A stretch of 64,000 nucleotides of DNA. It comes from Verrucomicrobiaceae bacterium. GTDB taxonomy: Bacteria > Verrucomicrobiota > Verrucomicrobiia > Verrucomicrobiales > Verrucomicrobiaceae. Made by a program: the position numbers and the translations under genes. The notes under the pieces are model-generated. The model had not been told where the DNA came from, made no database searches, and saw only the letters and a list, made by a program, of their open reading frames with translations. The stretch lies in assembly GCA_016795485.1 (NCBI GenBank), contig JAEUHM010000027.1, positions 1 to 64,000 of the forward strand, in the 5' to 3' direction. Positions 24,435 through 32,500 of this stretch are shown piece by piece (the stretch's first letter is position 1; the number at the start of each line of letters is the position of its first letter).

Positions 24435-25694
24435 TTAGGCCAGACCGGTCATGGTGCCGCTGCTGGTGGCGAACTTTTCTTCCTCCACTCCTAGCTGCTG
24501 CAGGGCGCTGAGGTAGAGGTTGGGCAGAGGGTAGTTCTCGCTCTGGTCAAAGGCGAGGTGCTGGCCGTGCTTGAAGCCGCCGCCGGCAAAGAGGACGGGC
24601 ATGTTCTTGTTGTCGTGGCTGCTGGCGTTGCCCAAGTTTGAGGTCATGAGCACCATGGTTTCGTCCAGGAGCTTGTCGGTCTTGAGCTTGCGCAAGAAGG
24701 CTGCCCACTGGTTGATCATTCCCTGCTCCACGATGGCGAGTTGAGCGAGTTTTTCCTCGTCCATGCCGTGGTGGCTGAGGCCGTGGTAGCTCTCGTCCAC
24801 GCCTTCGATGCCTTGCACGCCGTTGCCGGTGACGTGCAGCGTGACGAAGCGGGTGCTGTCGGTCATGAGCGCCATGTGGATGATGTCCAGAAAGATGCCT
24901 TCCACGGCGACTTCGTTGTCGCGCGGCACAGCGGCGGGTGGCTTCATGCTGACGCGGGGCTTAGGCCGGTGGGTCCAGGCTTCATTGGCCGCAAGACGTT
25001 GTTCGAGGTCGCGCACGCTGGTGAACCAGGCGTCTAGCTTGTCGCGATCTGCCCCGCCAAGCTCGCGCTGGAGAGCTTTTGCCTCAGCACCCACGAGATC
25101 CATGATGCTGCGGCCTTTTTGGATGAGCTCAGCCTGCCGCTCCTGCTCCTGCGCGCTGTCGTCCACAAAGAGCCGGGTGAAGAGCTTCATGGCGCTGTTC
25201 TCGGCAGGAATCATCGAGCCGTTTTCGGTGTAGGAAGGGCTGCTTTGGCTGTTGGTGTTGAGCACCAGGGAGGGAAATCGGGTCTCGTGGCCCAAATGAC
25301 GCGCCATGAGTTGATCCAGCGAGATGGTGTTGCGAGAAGTGGCTCCGCGTTGGTTGGGACAGGCGGAAAAGATGCTGCCCTCGGCGGTGTGCCCGCCGGT
25401 GACGCCTGGATGGGACGAGCCTGAAACGACGGTGAAGTCCTGCCGGAGGTCCTGAATGGACTGCAAGTAGCGAGAGGGCTGGTAATCGCGCCCAGTGGTG
25501 CTGGGCACGAGGTTGGGGTTATGCAATCCAAGCGCCAAACTCACGCCCACAAACCTCCGCGCCTTCGGCCCCTGAGGAGCGCTCAACGCCAAAGCCGGAG
25601 TCATGGCCTCCAACAAAGGCAAACCAAGACTAACCCCCGCCCCACGAAGAAAAGTGCGGCGAGAAAGGTGTTTTTTGAAGGTGAAAGTGGCCAT
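24435..25694 (-). CDS. DUF1552 family exported protein
   Basis: A 419-residue protein with a twin-arginine signal (LSRRTFLRGAGVSLGLPLLEAM). The DUF1552 pattern is clear: HPGVTGGHTAEGSIFSAC, ISLDQLMARHLG, FPSLVLNTNS and a C-terminal VLMTSNLGNASSHDNKNMPV segment with GGGFKHGQHL. Such proteins, related to DUF1501/sulfatase-like folds, normally lie next to DUF1592 cytochrome-type genes in planctomycetes and verrucomicrobia. Here that partner is 4.4 kb away, at 30091. The biochemical role is unknown; a periplasmic process coupled to c-type haem is suggested by the usual partner. Confidence 0.88.
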   Translation of the reverse strand: MATFTFKKHLSRRTFLRGAGVSLGLPLLEAMTPALALSAPQGPKARRFVGVSLALGLHNPNLVPSTTGRDYQPSRYLQSIQDLRQDFTVVSGSSHPGVTGGHTAEGSIFSACPNQRGATSRNTISLDQLMARHLGHETRFPSLVLNTNSQSSPSYTENGSMIPAENSAMKLFTRLFVDDSAQEQERQAELIQKGRSIMDLVGAEAKALQRELGGADRDKLDAWFTSVRDLEQRLAANEAWTHRPKPRVSMKPPAAVPRDNEVAVEGIFLDIIHMALMTDSTRFVTLHVTGNGVQGIEGVDESYHGLSHHGMDEEKLAQLAIVEQGMINQWAAFLRKLKTDKLLDETMVLMTSNLGNASSHDNKNMPVLFAGGGFKHGQHLAFDQSENYPLPNLYLSALQQLGVEEEKFATSSGTMTGLA

Positions 25695-25710
25695 GGGTTT
25701 GCACGATAAC

Positions 25711-25735
25711 GAAAGGCGAGGGGTGGTCTATCGCC
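25711..25735. repeat. 25-bp direct repeat, left copy
   Basis: The 25 bases gaaaggcgagg to tctatcgcc are identical to 28923-28947. This copy lies 17 bp upstream of the DUF1552 start codon and 35 bp beyond the end of the VKOR-fusion gene, so the two copies bracket that gene. Confidence 0.85.
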
Positions 25736-25769
25736 GGTGTCGTGCCAACTTTGGCCGAAGTGTGGGACC

Positions 25770-28724
25770 TCAATGCTCATGAACCTCACGGTAGTTGGGA
25801 CCGTAGGGAAAGTTGAGCGTGCAGGCCAGATGATTGCGCAACCTTAGCAGTTGTGTCTTGTATTTCGGATCACCCGTCTGGGCAAATTGAGTGCGCAGCA
25901 CATCGGCGGCTTTGCGCATCTTCTCCACTCGACGCTTGAGCGTATCCTGCATGATGTCGGGGAAATACGCGTGGATGTAAGTGGCGAAACAAAGAGCAAA
26001 AGCCCCGGTCAGGTCATCCATGGCCGGTATGGACTCCACCCGCACGCCCAAACGTTTTGCTGCTGAAGTAAAGGTCCGAACGAAGTGATCGAAGTTGTCC
26101 CAGTATTTGGCAAACTTCTGATAGTTGCCCATCGGGTCGGTGTTCAAGGCTTTAGTGATCAGCTCAGACTTACCCAACTCTCGTCCATCAGCGATGACCT
26201 GACTAAATGCAGCGGCGGCTTCGATGTAGACTGAATCTTCCTTCTGGCTGTCAAAAACCCTTTTGACCACGTCATTGAGCTTCACGCAATCAGCGCTTGG
26301 GTCTTTGTCGTTGTAAAAGCATCCGTTAAAAAGGTCCCTCGCAGCCTCTCTGTATTGTTTGAGGGAATGCGGATCTCTCTGAAGGCCCGATAAATACTGC
26401 TGATCCAAGGTTTCAGTTTTGGCTAACAGAGACGTTACTTCCTCATAAGCAGTTTCAAAAGAGGAGTCGCTTGTAACAGGCTTGATTGCGGGAGCTGATT
26501 TGTTAGCAACCGAACCATTAGCAGCCAAAACACGATCCGCGTATTTCTCCGCCGAACTCACCGAGTAGTAATCGAGATGATTCTGCAAATTTGGTTTATC
26601 TTTATGAAAGTGGAATAATGGCGCTGCGTGTACACCTGGGCTGCTCGAGTCGCGGGAAAATGTTCTCCAGCGATATAAGTTAGACAATCGAGTTATCAGA
26701 GCGTGCACTGAACTCGATTGAATCCAACCATCTTTTGTAAGGCTGCTATTCAGAGCATAAGATATGGATGCATCTTTTTCACTTCTTTGCGTCCGAAGAA
26801 GCACACCCTCATCCGTAAATGCCGCATAACAACTGCACGCGTCCGTTTCAGTGGGCAGTATCATCTCTGCCACTTCCGCACCATCGCATGTCATGGGCAA
26901 TGCATGAAAAACTGCCTCGGAAAACTTTTGTCTGAGCGGTTCAAAGTCTTGAGTCGTAAGACATGTGCCGGAGGTTGTTTTTCCGTTCCCCTTTTCGGCA
27001 TTTCTAAGTGACTCATGTTTTTCATCTGGTCCCGTCTCATCATCCGAAGGCCAAACCGGCAGAGCCACCTTTCCATTGGGTAGCCTGTCGCTGTGTGAAG
27101 AGACAAAGATGTCCACCTTGAGATACTTGGAGATGTCTTCCCCTTCTTGAAGGTGCTTTTTGCACTCCAGGTCTTTCAGAAACCCCTGTTTCAGCGATTC
27201 GAGAGCGGCGTCATTTTTGAAGAACTGCTCAAAGGCTGGCTTCGATGTGGGGATGTGTCGCACAGCACTTCCCATCCGAGCTTTTGCCCGGGCAATCGAA
27301 TCCTTTACCGCCTTGGTGGTGTCACTCGACAGGACAATTACCCGGGTGTTCTTGGGTTTGGCTTGGCTCAAGGCATCCAAAAAGTGAATGGTATCCCCGG
27401 CCGCCGGATCGGTGCCGGGATTTTTGGGGTCGGAGTTTAGATTTTCGCCCGCACCGTTGAAGAGGATGGTCAGATTCCCGCAGAACTTTCTTCCACTGCA
27501 CGGCTCGCTCGACTGGCTGGCAGCGGCTGGCCAGGGCAGCCCTTTCCCGGTGAGGGAAACGAGGTCCTTCACACCGGAAGGTGCCCCCAGCAGGATCTGG
27601 CTCTCAACCTGGAGCTGAGGCAACATCACCTCACGGCCCGTGACACGTGCGTTCTCGGCCATCAGTTCACGAGTCTTCTGGATCAGGTCCACCGTCCAGG
27701 CGTGGTGCTTTTGCCGCGCGGCGTCCCACTCCGTCTGGCCACCGAGAGCGAGACGGACCGCCTCGGTGACTGCCTCGCGAGTCGGGAGCAGATCGGAGCG
27801 GTAGAGTCGTGCGCTGAGCTCGGCCCAGGCCTTGGGGTTCTCGCGCCAGAGGATGAGCAGGGCAGTCTGAAGCGCAGAGCTCAACTCGGAATCAAGGGTG
27901 CCCGGAAGGAACACAATGGCCACCTCGCCCTCCGTTTGAGTCTTCCATGCCTCGCTGAGTTGCTGGCTGGTGTCCCGACAGTGGTGGCAGGTGGGATCGG
28001 TGATGCAGACGATGAGGTGCCTGGCGCTGATGGATCCCAGCCGTGGCAGCATTTCCATATCCAAGCGGAAGCGGCCTCCGTGCAGGGACAGCCAGTGGGT
28101 CCCATCCGCCTCAGTCCTCGCCACCGGCAGGGCCGTGGCCGGGAGCTTCTTGGCGTTTTCCTCGGACTTTGCCGTGGGCATCAGGCTGGAGAGAACACCG
28201 AGGACCAGCAGATGAGCAAGGGCGGACCACGCGATGGAAGGTGCAAGCCGCACCGGCTTCACTTTCCCAGGGGCAGGATGCGCCCCGTTCCGCCAGACGC
28301 CCACGATGCCGCAAGCTGCCCCCGCCGTGGCGAGGAGGTGGATGCTGCAACACCAAGGGCACCATGCCCTGAGGAAAATGGCCTGAACGCCAGTGAAAAA
28401 GAGGGCTGCGGCGAGGTTCCCACTGAGCAGGCAGATGAGCCAGGACCTACCCGACGAGGGGGAGCCAAGCAGAATGAGCTGCATCAGGTAGAAGGCCGCG
28501 CCCAACCATGCGGTCGGGATTCGCCCAACCGATGCCCAATCAGAACGCAGCACGGTGTCGCAGTCTGAACCCACGGGACAACCAGCAATCCCGCCCGAAC
28601 CATAGCGCAAACTTTGCCACCCCAGCCACGCGCTCAAAACCACGGCAGCGGAGAGAAGAACATGGGCGAGCACCAGTGGCGAATACACCATGTTGCGAGA
28701 TGAATGGCGGCCGGAATCGTTCAT
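25770..28724 (-). CDS. VKOR-DsbA-like fusion with putative clan CD peptidase domain
   Basis: From ATG 28724 a 984-residue protein. Residues about 10-180 form a VKOR domain: several membrane helices, C49 and C55 (GCPVGSDC) and the active CPWC (122-125). Another helix near 165-182 is followed by a thioredoxin/DsbA-like domain with CHHC (246-249). Residues about 410-710 are unlike any VKOR protein I know but resemble a caspase/legumain fold: LTILFNGAGEN, TRVIVLSSD, VDIFVSSHSD with H544 followed by GKVALPVWPSDD, then ETDACSC with C630/C632. The last 270 residues are helical and unrecognised. The domain order suggests oxidative folding or redox control of a peptidase. The upstream frame to 28838 is probably not translated. 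Confidence 0.78.
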   Translation of the reverse strand: MNDSGRHSSRNMVYSPLVLAHVLLSAAVVLSAWLGWQSLRYGSGGIAGCPVGSDCDTVLRSDWASVGRIPTAWLGAAFYLMQLILLGSPSSGRSWLICLLSGNLAAALFFTGVQAIFLRAWCPWCCSIHLLATAGAACGIVGVWRNGAHPAPGKVKPVRLAPSIAWSALAHLLVLGVLSSLMPTAKSEENAKKLPATALPVARTEADGTHWLSLHGGRFRLDMEMLPRLGSISARHLIVCITDPTCHHCRDTSQQLSEAWKTQTEGEVAIVFLPGTLDSELSSALQTALLILWRENPKAWAELSARLYRSDLLPTREAVTEAVRLALGGQTEWDAARQKHHAWTVDLIQKTRELMAENARVTGREVMLPQLQVESQILLGAPSGVKDLVSLTGKGLPWPAAASQSSEPCSGRKFCGNLTILFNGAGENLNSDPKNPGTDPAAGDTIHFLDALSQAKPKNTRVIVLSSDTTKAVKDSIARAKARMGSAVRHIPTSKPAFEQFFKNDAALESLKQGFLKDLECKKHLQEGEDISKYLKVDIFVSSHSDRLPNGKVALPVWPSDDETGPDEKHESLRNAEKGNGKTTSGTCLTTQDFEPLRQKFSEAVFHALPMTCDGAEVAEMILPTETDACSCYAAFTDEGVLLRTQRSEKDASISYALNSSLTKDGWIQSSSVHALITRLSNLYRWRTFSRDSSSPGVHAAPLFHFHKDKPNLQNHLDYYSVSSAEKYADRVLAANGSVANKSAPAIKPVTSDSSFETAYEEVTSLLAKTETLDQQYLSGLQRDPHSLKQYREAARDLFNGCFYNDKDPSADCVKLNDVVKRVFDSQKEDSVYIEAAAAFSQVIADGRELGKSELITKALNTDPMGNYQKFAKYWDNFDHFVRTFTSAAKRLGVRVESIPAMDDLTGAFALCFATYIHAYFPDIMQDTLKRRVEKMRKAADVLRTQFAQTGDPKYKTQLLRLRNHLACTLNFPYGPNYREVHEH

Positions 28725-28922
28725 GAGTAACGCGCAGGTATTGATCGAATGGTTAGGTTTCAGCCGACCGATTTCAAGGCGGAAAGTCTTTGAGCCCGCA
28801 CCGGGCAGCAACGGATGAGAACCGCAGACATAGGTCACAGATTCACCGTGTGTCGCCCACTTCAGAAACCTCAGTGGTGGAGGAATGGATCGGGCTGCAT
28901 GATCTTCGAGGAAGATGAAACC

Positions 28923-28947
28923 GAAAGGCGAGGGGTGGTCTATCGCC
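28923..28947. repeat. 25-bp direct repeat, right copy
   Basis: Identical to 25711-25735. It lies 199 bp upstream of the VKOR-fusion start codon, in the gap before the small zeta-partner gene. Flanking bases on both sides differ between the copies. Confidence 0.85.
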
Positions 28948-29073
28948 TGGAGGATGGAAGTGGAAGAAAGGATCCCTCAGGAGTTGGGCCAAGATCAACT
29001 GCCAGCCGCGTTTGCCGTTGGCGGCTTCGTGGTCTACGATTACCCTCTGAGAACGACGCCCCCTGCATTTCAA

Positions 29074-29301
29074 ATGAACGACTCCGACTCTGCGCTCGAC
29101 TATCTAGAGCAACAAATACCCTCGCTCTCCGCTGCTGCTGTGGACGTGGCCTACTGGCAGGCGCTCAGCAGCGGACTGGAGGTGCTCATCAGCGACGATG
29201 ATGGCATTTACCAAGCATTGCCGGATGGAACTAAGAAGCTCATTAAGCCGACAGACAAGCCGCTCAGCATTCCGGTGGGGACTCGGATCAAGATTCCCTG
29301 A
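29074..29301 (+). CDS. small protein preceding zeta-like toxin (putative antitoxin)
   Basis: From ATG 29074 about 75 residues (MNDSDSALDYLEQQ). It has an N-terminal helix, then short strands (GLEVLISDDDGIYQALPDGT) and a lysine-rich end (KKLIKPTDKPL). It starts within a longer frame that opens at 28915 but lacks coding character there. It ends 3 bp before the zeta-like gene, so it is the likely partner. It does not look like a classical epsilon or HTH antitoxin. Confidence 0.65.
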   Translation: MNDSDSALDYLEQQIPSLSAAAVDVAYWQALSSGLEVLISDDDGIYQALPDGTKKLIKPTDKPLSIPVGTRIKIP

Positions 29302-29304
29302 CCT

Positions 29305-30054
29305 ATGAGCGTGCCCCGTATGCGCATGTTTGCAGGTCCGAATGGTTCTGGCAAAAGCACGATCAAAAGTGTCGTGCCCGCTAATCTGCTCGGCATTTAC
29401 GTGAATCCAGATGAGATTCAGAAGGAGATTGAAGACCGTGGGTTTCTGGATGTCCATCAGTACGATGTGAAGACGACCCGAGATGAAATCTTGGGATATT
29501 TCATGGATTCGCCTTTGCTGAGGAGAGCAGACTTAGATGACGAGGCTGCGTGCTTGCGTTTCACCGATGGCAAGCTGGACTTTTTTGAGGTGATTGTTAA
29601 CGCCTACTTTGCTTCTGTGGCTGCCGACTTCCTCCGGCAAAAGCTGTTAGAGCAGCGTAGATCATTCTCATTTGAGACCGTGATGTCATCGCCCGATAAG
29701 GTGCAACTCCTACAGAAGGCGCAAGGGCTTGGCTACAGGACCTATCTTTACTACATAGCCACCGATGACCCGTCTATCAATGTGTCTCGGGTAAAAGCCC
29801 GCGTTCAATTAGGAGGCCATGACGTGCCGGAGGATAAAATCGTCAACCGGTATGCCCGGTCACTCAATTTGCTCTTGGACGCCGTGAAGCACACGAACCG
29901 CGCTTATCTTTTCGACAACTCCAGGCATGGCGGTGCTCGCCTCTGGGTGGCGGAGATAACCGATGGCCAAGACTTGGAAGTGAAGTGTGATCCCATGCCG
30001 CATTGGTTTGAGAAGGCTATCTGGAACAAAGTTTCAAGGGGCCGCTCACACTAG
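29305..30054 (+). CDS. zeta-toxin family P-loop kinase
   Basis: A 249-residue P-loop protein with Walker A AGPNGSGKST (10-19), YVNPDEIQKEI, a middle RRSFSFETVMSSPDK and the LYYIATDDPSINVSRVKARVQLGGHDVPEDKIVNRYARS segment characteristic of zeta/ATP-GTP-binding AbiQ-like 'predicted ABC-type ATPase' proteins. Zeta toxins phosphorylate UDP-GlcNAc-type peptidoglycan precursors; whether this member does so is not shown. It is translationally close to the 75-residue upstream gene. Confidence 0.82.
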   Translation: MSVPRMRMFAGPNGSGKSTIKSVVPANLLGIYVNPDEIQKEIEDRGFLDVHQYDVKTTRDEILGYFMDSPLLRRADLDDEAACLRFTDGKLDFFEVIVNAYFASVAADFLRQKLLEQRRSFSFETVMSSPDKVQLLQKAQGLGYRTYLYYIATDDPSINVSRVKARVQLGGHDVPEDKIVNRYARSLNLLLDAVKHTNRAYLFDNSRHGGARLWVAEITDGQDLEVKCDPMPHWFEKAIWNKVSRGRSH

Positions 30055-30090
30055 CCCCAAGCAGCAAACTTGCTGAGAGAAGACTCCAGC

Positions 30091-32400
30091 CTACTTCTTC
30101 ATGAACACCTCGCTGAGCATGGAGGCTTTGAGGAGTTGGCGGATGGTTGGGGTCTCGGTGGCGAGTTTGTCCAGGGTGGGCTCGTCGCTCAGCCGGATGG
30201 GGGAGCCGGTGGCGTAGGTGAGGAACTGGGCAACGAACCCGCGGGCGAGTTGCTGCTTGCGCTGGCCATAGATTTTCTGCCAAGCGCGGAGGTCGGCAAA
30301 CGGAGCGCCATCTGGTGTGCGACCGGAGGGATCGACCCGCGCGCCTTTGTCTCCTTTGCCATAGCTGACGCGCCAGAGCCCCACGGGATCGAAGTTCTCC
30401 AGGGCAAAACCTGGTGGGTCGATGGTCTGATGGCAACTGGCGCAAGACTCGTTGTTGCGGTGCTTGTCGAGTTGGTCGCGGATGGAAACGGCACCGCGAA
30501 TGTCTGGCTCAATGGCGGGAACTCCGGGCGGTGGCGGCGGAATGCGCTCACCAAGAATGCGCTCATTGACGAAAACTCCTCTCACGACGGGTGAGGTGTG
30601 CGTGCCGTCTGCGGTGACTTTCAAAATGGCACCTTGGGCGACGAGACCGCCACGCACTGAGCCATCCACGAGTTTCACGCGCTGAAGCCCTGCCCCTGGG
30701 GTGAGGCTGACTTTCTCCTCGTAGTGCCGCGCGAGCCGCTCATTGAGGTAAGTGTAACCAGAGTCAACGAACGCGGTGATGCTGCGGTCGGACTTGATGA
30801 GATCGCTAACATACAGACGCGTCTCTTGAAGCATGGACTCCTGCAGAACGGGGTCGAAGGTCTTGAAGAGCCGGGTGTCTGGGCTGGTGAAGTCGATCTG
30901 GTTGAGCTTGAGCCACTGGTCCGTGAAGCTGGCAATGAAACGCTCTGCCTTGGGATCGTCCAACATGCGGTCGATCTGAGCTGAGAGTGTGGCGAGTTCC
31001 TTCAATTTTCCCTGATCGGCCAGGGTGATGAGTTCCTCGTCTGGCATAGAGGTCCAGAGAGCGTAGCTGAGTCGAGTAGCGAGAGCATGATCGTCGAGAG
31101 GGCCCGGAGCCTCGATAAAGCTGAGGAAGCGAGGCGAGCAGAGGATAGCCCGATAGGCAGCGCGTAAGGCTTCCGGCACAGTGCCACCTTCTTTGAGCAA
31201 GCCCTGAGCGATGCCTTGATAAGCGGCCACTTGTTCGTTCGTGACCGGTCTGCGGAAGGCGCGGGCCGCAAAGTCTTTGATGATCGTGGGCACGTTTTCC
31301 TTGACCAGCTCATGGCTTCCGAACAGGCGCTTGCGCACCTGTTGGCTGCTCGCATAGGGATAGATGCGCTCGATTTGGATGCCGGTGTGCGAGATGCCCT
31401 GGAAGCCCTGCTTGGCAAGGCTGCGTCCGTCAAACGAGACATTTCCCCCTTTGGCTCCGGTGGGTGCTTTCTTCTGAGTGGCGTCGTTTGGCCGCAGTTC
31501 CAGCATGTGGTCTTCCTGCATCCAGGCCTCAAACGTGAGGTCGCGCGGCTCTTCTGTCGCCTCGACAAGGCCGACCATGTAAAGCATGGGCGCGTCTGAA
31601 TAACAGGTCCCCGAGCGCAAGGTGCCCCAGACAACTCCTGCGTCTGAGGGGTTGATGGCTTTCACCTGACGCAAGGTAATGCGATACCAGCCGTCCTCTG
31701 GCACACTGGTAGCGTTCATGCGACCAAAGAACTGCAGCGTGATGGGCCACGAGATGCTTTTGCCATCCTTCAGGTCGGGGCCACGATAGTTGCCTCGGGT
31801 CTTCTGAGCGAGGTCTTTGGGCGTGTAGAACTTTTTGAAGGTCTTGTCGCCTTCCAAGGCACGATCAAATGCCTCATCGAGCGCCAAATCTGCCACGTCC
31901 AGGTAACGTGCGAGCTGGTGTTGGGAGAGTTGCTGCCCATCGGCCACGGTTTCAAAACCATGAGAGATGCGATCCTCGGGCAAAAGGGTCTTGAGGGGTC
32001 GGTCGATGCCGAGCAAGTCGTGCAGCGTGTGATCATACTCGACTCTCGTGAGGCGGCGGCCCCTCACACGACCGCGAGCAGCGATGTCTGCCTTGTCCGC
32101 ACTGAAGAGAGGGGCCTTCAGAGCACTGAGAAAGGCGGTTTTGTCCGCAGGTTCTGGCTGAGGCTTCTTCTTGGGCGGCATTTCGCCATCGCGCACTCGC
32201 TCCATCACGCGGACCCATTTTTCAAAAGCGCTTCCGTCTGCCAAATCCCAGCCAAGGGCCATCAAATCGAGGCCTCCTTTTTTCACATCGGCATCATGGC
32301 AGTCGGTGCAGTGCCGGGACATGAAGTCGGCAATGCCTGGGGGCTGGTCAGCGAACACGGTGGCCGCCAGCAGGGGTAACGTGAAAAGGGGGAGTCTCAC
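30091..32400 (-). CDS. DUF1592/DUF1588/DUF1585 cytochrome-type protein
   Basis: About 769 residues from GTG 32400, chosen because it gives a clean signal peptide (MRLPLFTLPLLAATVFA); the frame opens at a TTG at 32430. The mature start holds a haem-binding CTDCH, followed by DUF1587-type sequence (TRVEYDHTLHDLLGID), DUF1595, DUF1592 (ATRLSYALWTSMPDEEL), DUF1588 (GGLVAQGAILKVTADGTHTSPVVRG cut by TSP, then CASCHQTIDPPG with a second CXXCH) and DUF1585 (FVAQFLTYATG). This planctomycete-type cytochrome c architecture normally partners DUF1552. It is divergent from nuoA. Confidence 0.88.
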   Translation of the reverse strand: MRLPLFTLPLLAATVFADQPPGIADFMSRHCTDCHDADVKKGGLDLMALGWDLADGSAFEKWVRVMERVRDGEMPPKKKPQPEPADKTAFLSALKAPLFSADKADIAARGRVRGRRLTRVEYDHTLHDLLGIDRPLKTLLPEDRISHGFETVADGQQLSQHQLARYLDVADLALDEAFDRALEGDKTFKKFYTPKDLAQKTRGNYRGPDLKDGKSISWPITLQFFGRMNATSVPEDGWYRITLRQVKAINPSDAGVVWGTLRSGTCYSDAPMLYMVGLVEATEEPRDLTFEAWMQEDHMLELRPNDATQKKAPTGAKGGNVSFDGRSLAKQGFQGISHTGIQIERIYPYASSQQVRKRLFGSHELVKENVPTIIKDFAARAFRRPVTNEQVAAYQGIAQGLLKEGGTVPEALRAAYRAILCSPRFLSFIEAPGPLDDHALATRLSYALWTSMPDEELITLADQGKLKELATLSAQIDRMLDDPKAERFIASFTDQWLKLNQIDFTSPDTRLFKTFDPVLQESMLQETRLYVSDLIKSDRSITAFVDSGYTYLNERLARHYEEKVSLTPGAGLQRVKLVDGSVRGGLVAQGAILKVTADGTHTSPVVRGVFVNERILGERIPPPPPGVPAIEPDIRGAVSIRDQLDKHRNNESCASCHQTIDPPGFALENFDPVGLWRVSYGKGDKGARVDPSGRTPDGAPFADLRAWQKIYGQRKQQLARGFVAQFLTYATGSPIRLSDEPTLDKLATETPTIRQLLKASMLSEVFMKK

Positions 32401-32500
32401 TACCGGCGAGAACGGCAGGACTGGGGCCAACTTTCAGCCCAATCGCAGTGGGGAATGACAGTTTGACGCCATGAGAGCCGCCGCTAGAGTCTCGGCCGTT

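Follow-up and report, generated by a model that had tools for sequence, protein, structure and literature searches.

Two kinds of described protein resemble the gene product reported here. The VKORC1/thioredoxin domain protein (PDB 3kp9, 4nv2) consists of a VKOR membrane domain followed by a thioredoxin (Trx) domain, in chains of 291 residues. DsbI, found for example in Epsilonproteobacteria, is a five-transmembrane (TM), quinone-linked disulfide oxidase which carries a C-terminal periplasmic domain, a beta-propeller (PMC5403849). A third group, the clan CD peptidases, whose caspase-haemoglobinase fold has the strand order 2-1-3-4, becomes relevant through a proposed peptidase domain. In these enzymes the catalytic His lies after b3 and the catalytic Cys after b4, at C-terminal strand ends of the core sheet, and a Gly adjoins the catalytic His as a structurally conserved residue throughout the families of the clan (PMC4357240). 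In this study, we describe a VKOR-Trx protein with a long C-terminal extension, encoded in a window of 64,000 nucleotides from a member of the Verrucomicrobiaceae. This domain architecture is real and rare; among the VKOR-Trx fusions it is a novel variant. The original prediction had assigned a caspase/legumain-type peptidase domain to the extension, and we evaluate this assignment together with its alternatives.

The open reading frame and its coordinates (Table 1) were borne out, and the gene is the sole copy found in its own 6.5 Mb assembly. An in-frame GTG at 28838 is a possible alternative start; in the alignment the homologue L002 starts level with the shorter form of the window protein, not with the GTG form. 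PADLOC returned no defence match for the protein.

Residues 1-390 comprise a VKOR membrane domain and a DsbA-like Trx domain. Both had been recognised from their CPWC and CHHC motifs, rightly so according to Pfam and PDB matches and to the conservation of the Cys residues. The VKOR family (PF07884) matched with E=2.4e-12 and 47.6 bits, against a curated cut-off of 27.5. Thioredoxin_4 (PF13462) matched with E=1e-4 and 23.0 bits, 0.2 bits short of its cut-off of 23.2, and phmmer matched the Trx domain to DsbA-like and copper-resistance (ScsC-type) PDB chains with E about 5e-7. In a VKOR-Trx alignment of 24 rows (the window protein and up to 23 relatives), the VKOR residues C49, C55, C122 and C125 are kept in 21-24 rows, C246 and C249 of the CHHC motif in 23 and 24 rows, and the cis-Pro P369 in all 24. 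The window protein thus combines a VKOR score above cut-off, the CXXC motif and the loop Cys pair with the CxxC motif and cis-Pro of a DsbA-like protein within a thioredoxin-fold domain. Hydropathy reveals further hydrophobic segments within the VKOR part, and the segment preceding the Trx domain is likely the fifth TM helix. Judged by its sequence, the VKOR-Trx half is apparently an ordinary, seemingly intact disulfide-forming oxidoreductase.

Table 1. Features of the VKOR-Trx-extension gene; positions refer to the window.
Feature	Position	Strand	Remarks
ORF of the VKOR-Trx-extension protein	25770-28724	minus	984 aa
VKOR membrane domain, residues 22-134	28323..28661	minus	loop Cys C49/C55, CPWC C122/C125; Pfam and alignment
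Hydrophobic segment, residues 160-182, before Trx domain	28179..28247	minus	Kyte-Doolittle windows
DsbA-like Trx domain, residues 206-390	27555..28109	minus	C246-H-H-C249, cis-Pro P369
Alpha/beta part of extension, residues 409-640	26805..27500	minus	homologue L002; predicted strands and helices, low confidence
H544	27093..27095	minus	end of predicted strand; Ser next in both proteins
C613	26886..26888	minus	directly after the next predicted strand
C630-x-C632	26829..26837	minus	'DACSC' of the original prediction; no strand before C630 in models
C-terminal part, residues 641-984	25773..26804	minus	mostly helical, no family match; co-aligns end to end with homologue

Downstream of the Trx domain, the roughly 570 additional residues counted previously are present and amount to about 590 (residues ~391-984), with no match in Pfam, NCBIfam, PHROG or PDB sequences. 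The full-length architecture is shared by one other genome, the Verrucomicrobiales MAG G126 (contig JAEUHI010000071.1, locus L002). By blastp, residues 48-977 of the window protein align with residues 40-1022 of L002 at 26% identity, and in the VKOR-Trx tree the two proteins are sisters with support of 100/99. The simplest history is therefore a single fusion, followed by descent or transfer. The gene neighbourhoods of the two members are unlike each other. The co-linear full-length homologue and the tree establish that the extension is genuine; it is also very rare. Matches to the whole protein occurred in 21 of 143 genomes, nearly all of them to the VKOR-Trx half. Searches with the profiles A1 and A2 in 387 genomes of the order, 75 of the family of G126, 388 of the phylum and 197 of the class (overlapping draws) yielded no extension homologue beyond L002; neither did a scan of genome contigs with two short peptide patterns, which may overlook distant members. 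No homologue of the extension was present in plasmids, phages or viral contigs either. A weak match in genome G019 (L021, E 1.5e-4), a frame upstream of antitoxin-like sequence, is probably due to chance and was left out of the second tree, and the low-scoring A2 matches in phylum genomes look like noise. Several VKOR-Trx relatives within the order carry a DUF1573/HYDIN-type Ig domain after the Trx domain, in the place of the extension; DUF1573 (PF07610) was detected by Pfam at this position in L004 and L005, and not in the window protein.

Base composition changes along both genes. Third-position GC falls from 0.75 (residues 1-387) to 0.53 (residues 640-984) in the window protein, and from 0.72 to 0.46 in the homologue; in both, it is markedly lower in the extension (25773-27563 and L002:2578-4551) than in the VKOR-Trx half. 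Since the drop is common to both members, it does not simply reflect a recent acquisition.

Concerning the neighbourhood, a zeta-toxin-like gene (29305-30054, plus strand, PF06414 E=4e-10), preceded by a small ORF (28915-29301, plus strand), lies next to the minus-strand VKOR gene. Within 24435-32430, the VKOR and zeta-toxin-like genes are located between a PSCyt1/DUF1592-type gene (30091-32430, minus strand) and a DUF1552 gene (24435-25694, minus strand). PSCyt1/DUF1592-type and DUF1552 genes are often neighbours, and the VKOR and zeta-toxin-like genes may represent an insertion between them.

With two proteins available for comparison, Cys is the most conserved residue type of the extension: 6 of 10 Cys are conserved as compared to 2 of 16 His. 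Within residues 409-640, five of seven Cys (409, 415, 613, 630, 632) are conserved with L002, H544 is the only conserved one of five His, and neither of the two Tyr is kept. The two proteins have in common the motifs PC..R.FC, H544-S, DFEPL, C613-[DN]-G.EV (TCDG and ACNG, respectively) and C630.C632, as well as a GxG (G424, G426) after the first strand. H544 and C630, the catalytic pair of the original prediction, were numbered correctly and are identical in the homologue. However, C409, C415, C613 and C632 are identical too, and the comparison covers two sequences only. The stretch GKVALPVWPSDD, containing the LPVWPSDD likened to the LLPVD of clan CD peptidases, is not conserved and reads SYMDPPQNHGLGF in the homologue. 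The Gly adjoining the His in clan CD is not found as a shared feature: the window protein has SSHSD and the homologue YGHSV, so that Ser follows the His in both and a Gly occurs in the homologue alone, preceding the His.

AF2 models built from the two-row alignment reach a mean pLDDT of 43.6 when the whole extension is modelled and 49.2 with the domain alone, low values that no doubt stem from there being only two sequences. Both models predict two strands separated by a helix, then helices with one additional strand, a strand ending in H544, a helix, a strand that stops directly ahead of C613, and another helix. C630-C632 are placed on the strand after this last helix in the first model. H544 and C613 fit the b3 and b4 ends in this low-confidence secondary structure, whereas H544 and C630 do not: C630 follows a helix and a loop, with no strand predicted just before it. 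A caspase/legumain-type peptidase with the dyad H544/C630 is thus extremely improbable. Identity of both residues in the two known members speaks for it; the predicted position of C630, the conserved C613 in the expected place of the nucleophile, the lack of a Gly after the His and the divergent LPVWPSDD motif speak against it. C630 was probably the wrong choice of active-site Cys. Should the fold be clan CD, the nucleophile would be C613, the Cys which follows a predicted strand in clan CD order.

Structural comparison of the models speaks neither for nor against the proposed caspase/C13 fold: the compatible strand order is the one positive sign, and Rossmann matches are at least as good as those to legumain. 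For the first model, VIA-align reached Z about 6 over 151-158 residues with legumain (8ae5, 4nok), VyPAL2 and GPI transamidase, and Z 6-7.3 with Rossmann proteins, sepiapterin reductase among them. The second, domain-only model matched Rossmann and other alpha/beta proteins (best Z 7.7), with no clan CD chain among the best 50 matches listed, although this does not demonstrate that such matches are absent. Models that lack a real relative usually reach a best Z of 7-8, and Foldseek gave no match at E<=0.001. Profile comparison did not recover the families named in the original prediction. Neither PF00656 (C14) nor PF01650 (C13) was matched by hmmscan up to E=10. Using hhalign, we compared the two-sequence query with C13, C14, CHAT, DUF4347 and short-chain dehydrogenase (SDR) alignments built from related genomes, each with 60 column shuffles. 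Probabilities were <1% throughout, and the real score was reached by 1-6 shuffles for C13/C14, 2 for SDR, 14 for DUF4347 and 19 for CHAT, hence not clearly above shuffles. The positive controls mostly failed as well: real two-sequence C14 profiles matched C13 at <=3% probability, so the test has little power. When a global alignment to a pooled clan CD set was forced, it scored above all 40 shuffles, yet it comprised 73 columns at the chain ends only and is not meaningful.

These data bear on two further readings. According to the first, residues 409-640 are a divergent His/Cys hydrolase of clan CD-like (caspase/legumain/CHAT) type, its dyad being H544/C613 and C630-C632 lying on the next strand; the attached oxidase would set the redox state of its nucleophile. 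The predicted strand order is compatible with a caspase-haemoglobinase fold (PMC4357240), H544 is the sole conserved His, C613 is conserved with a Gly two residues on, and members of the clan are among the matches of the first model. Nevertheless, we consider this hydrolase unlikely, given pLDDT values of 44 and 49 in round figures, the absence of the clan from the best 50 matches of the domain-only model, the absence of any Pfam, PDB sequence or profile signal, a Ser instead of a Gly beside the His, and one additional strand plus several helices that separate the second strand from the one bearing the His. Moreover, the conserved Cys could equally form disulfides. The complete proposal, a membrane disulfide oxidase joined to such a divergent caspase/legumain-like hydrolase (H544/C613) that is switched on or off by Cys oxidation, is rather more doubtful still. 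In the literature searched, no VKOR-caspase or VKOR-C39 fusion was found. According to the second reading, the extension is a Rossmann-type nucleotide-binding domain, for example a short-chain dehydrogenase. Rossmann dehydrogenases indeed make up the majority of the top Foldseek and VIA matches for both models, and the GxG is conserved. Still, we regard it as very unlikely: the Z values and the Foldseek result are those typical without a clear match, no conserved Tyr is left to serve as the SDR catalytic Tyr, hhalign scored SDRs no better than C14, and a cofactor-binding domain would be unexpected outside the cytoplasm.

Caspase- and legumain-like proteins are encoded elsewhere in these genomes. 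The assembly of the window itself (G000) has nine caspase-like (PF00656) matches, five of them within about 11 kb (G000:C18:136260-147441, part of which is L084). In the C13-like proteins of several relatives (L051, L053-L058, L060-L062, L064-L066), GHGTFDGRE is combined with IHTASxSGG, IHCASSSGG or IDTASASGG where DACxSG is expected. In most of these copies there is no Cys close to the catalytic position, so they may be pseudo-peptidases.

On balance, we favour the interpretation that the gene product is a periplasmic, quinone-linked disulfide oxidase to which a lineage-specific Cys-rich accessory domain is attached. By analogy to the known VKOR/DsbA mechanism, the Trx domain would oxidise exported proteins and would itself be re-oxidised by the VKOR domain, from which electrons would pass to quinone. 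Assuming the orientation of the family, the extension would lie on the same, periplasmic side, where it appears to take the place held by DUF1573/Ig-like domains in several related VKOR-Trx proteins. It may act as an accessory domain that docks or selects partners and is stabilised by its own conserved Cys. The most economical assumption is such an accessory or docking function, which DsbI and the DUF1573 relatives suggest. The conserved Cys are most simply explained as putative disulfides, which would suit their making by the protein's own front half. The weakest step of this explanation is that the extension be non-catalytic: one His and one Cys, both conserved and both at the end of a predicted strand, could belong to an enzyme. 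If the extension is truly a His/Cys hydrolase, the protein would be a redox-gated periplasmic protease, which is directly testable; the candidate active-site Cys to pursue should then be C613 rather than C630.

Compared to known systems, the window protein shares with 3kp9 and 4nv2 the order of VKOR and Trx; the match of the VKOR part is weak (E 0.04-0.56), those chains are devoid of the ~590-residue extension, and the Trx domain of the window protein is closer to the DsbA/ScsC type. Clan CD peptidases (C13 legumain, C14 caspase) show a compatible predicted strand order and His and Cys at candidate positions, but neither a sequence match nor a confident structural match, and the His of the window protein is followed by Ser instead of Gly. 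The verrucomicrobial VKOR-Trx-DUF1573 proteins (L004, L005, L006) have a homologous VKOR-Trx front of about 28-33% identity and end in DUF1573/HYDIN-type Ig domains, for which the window protein has no match. DsbI is comparable in layout; it unites a DsbB-family oxidase with a beta-propeller, whereas the oxidase here is a VKOR. Besides the propeller of DsbI and the DUF1573 fusions, the window protein, whose attachment domain is without recognisable relative, adds a further type of C-terminal attachment to the quinone-linked disulfide-forming enzymes.
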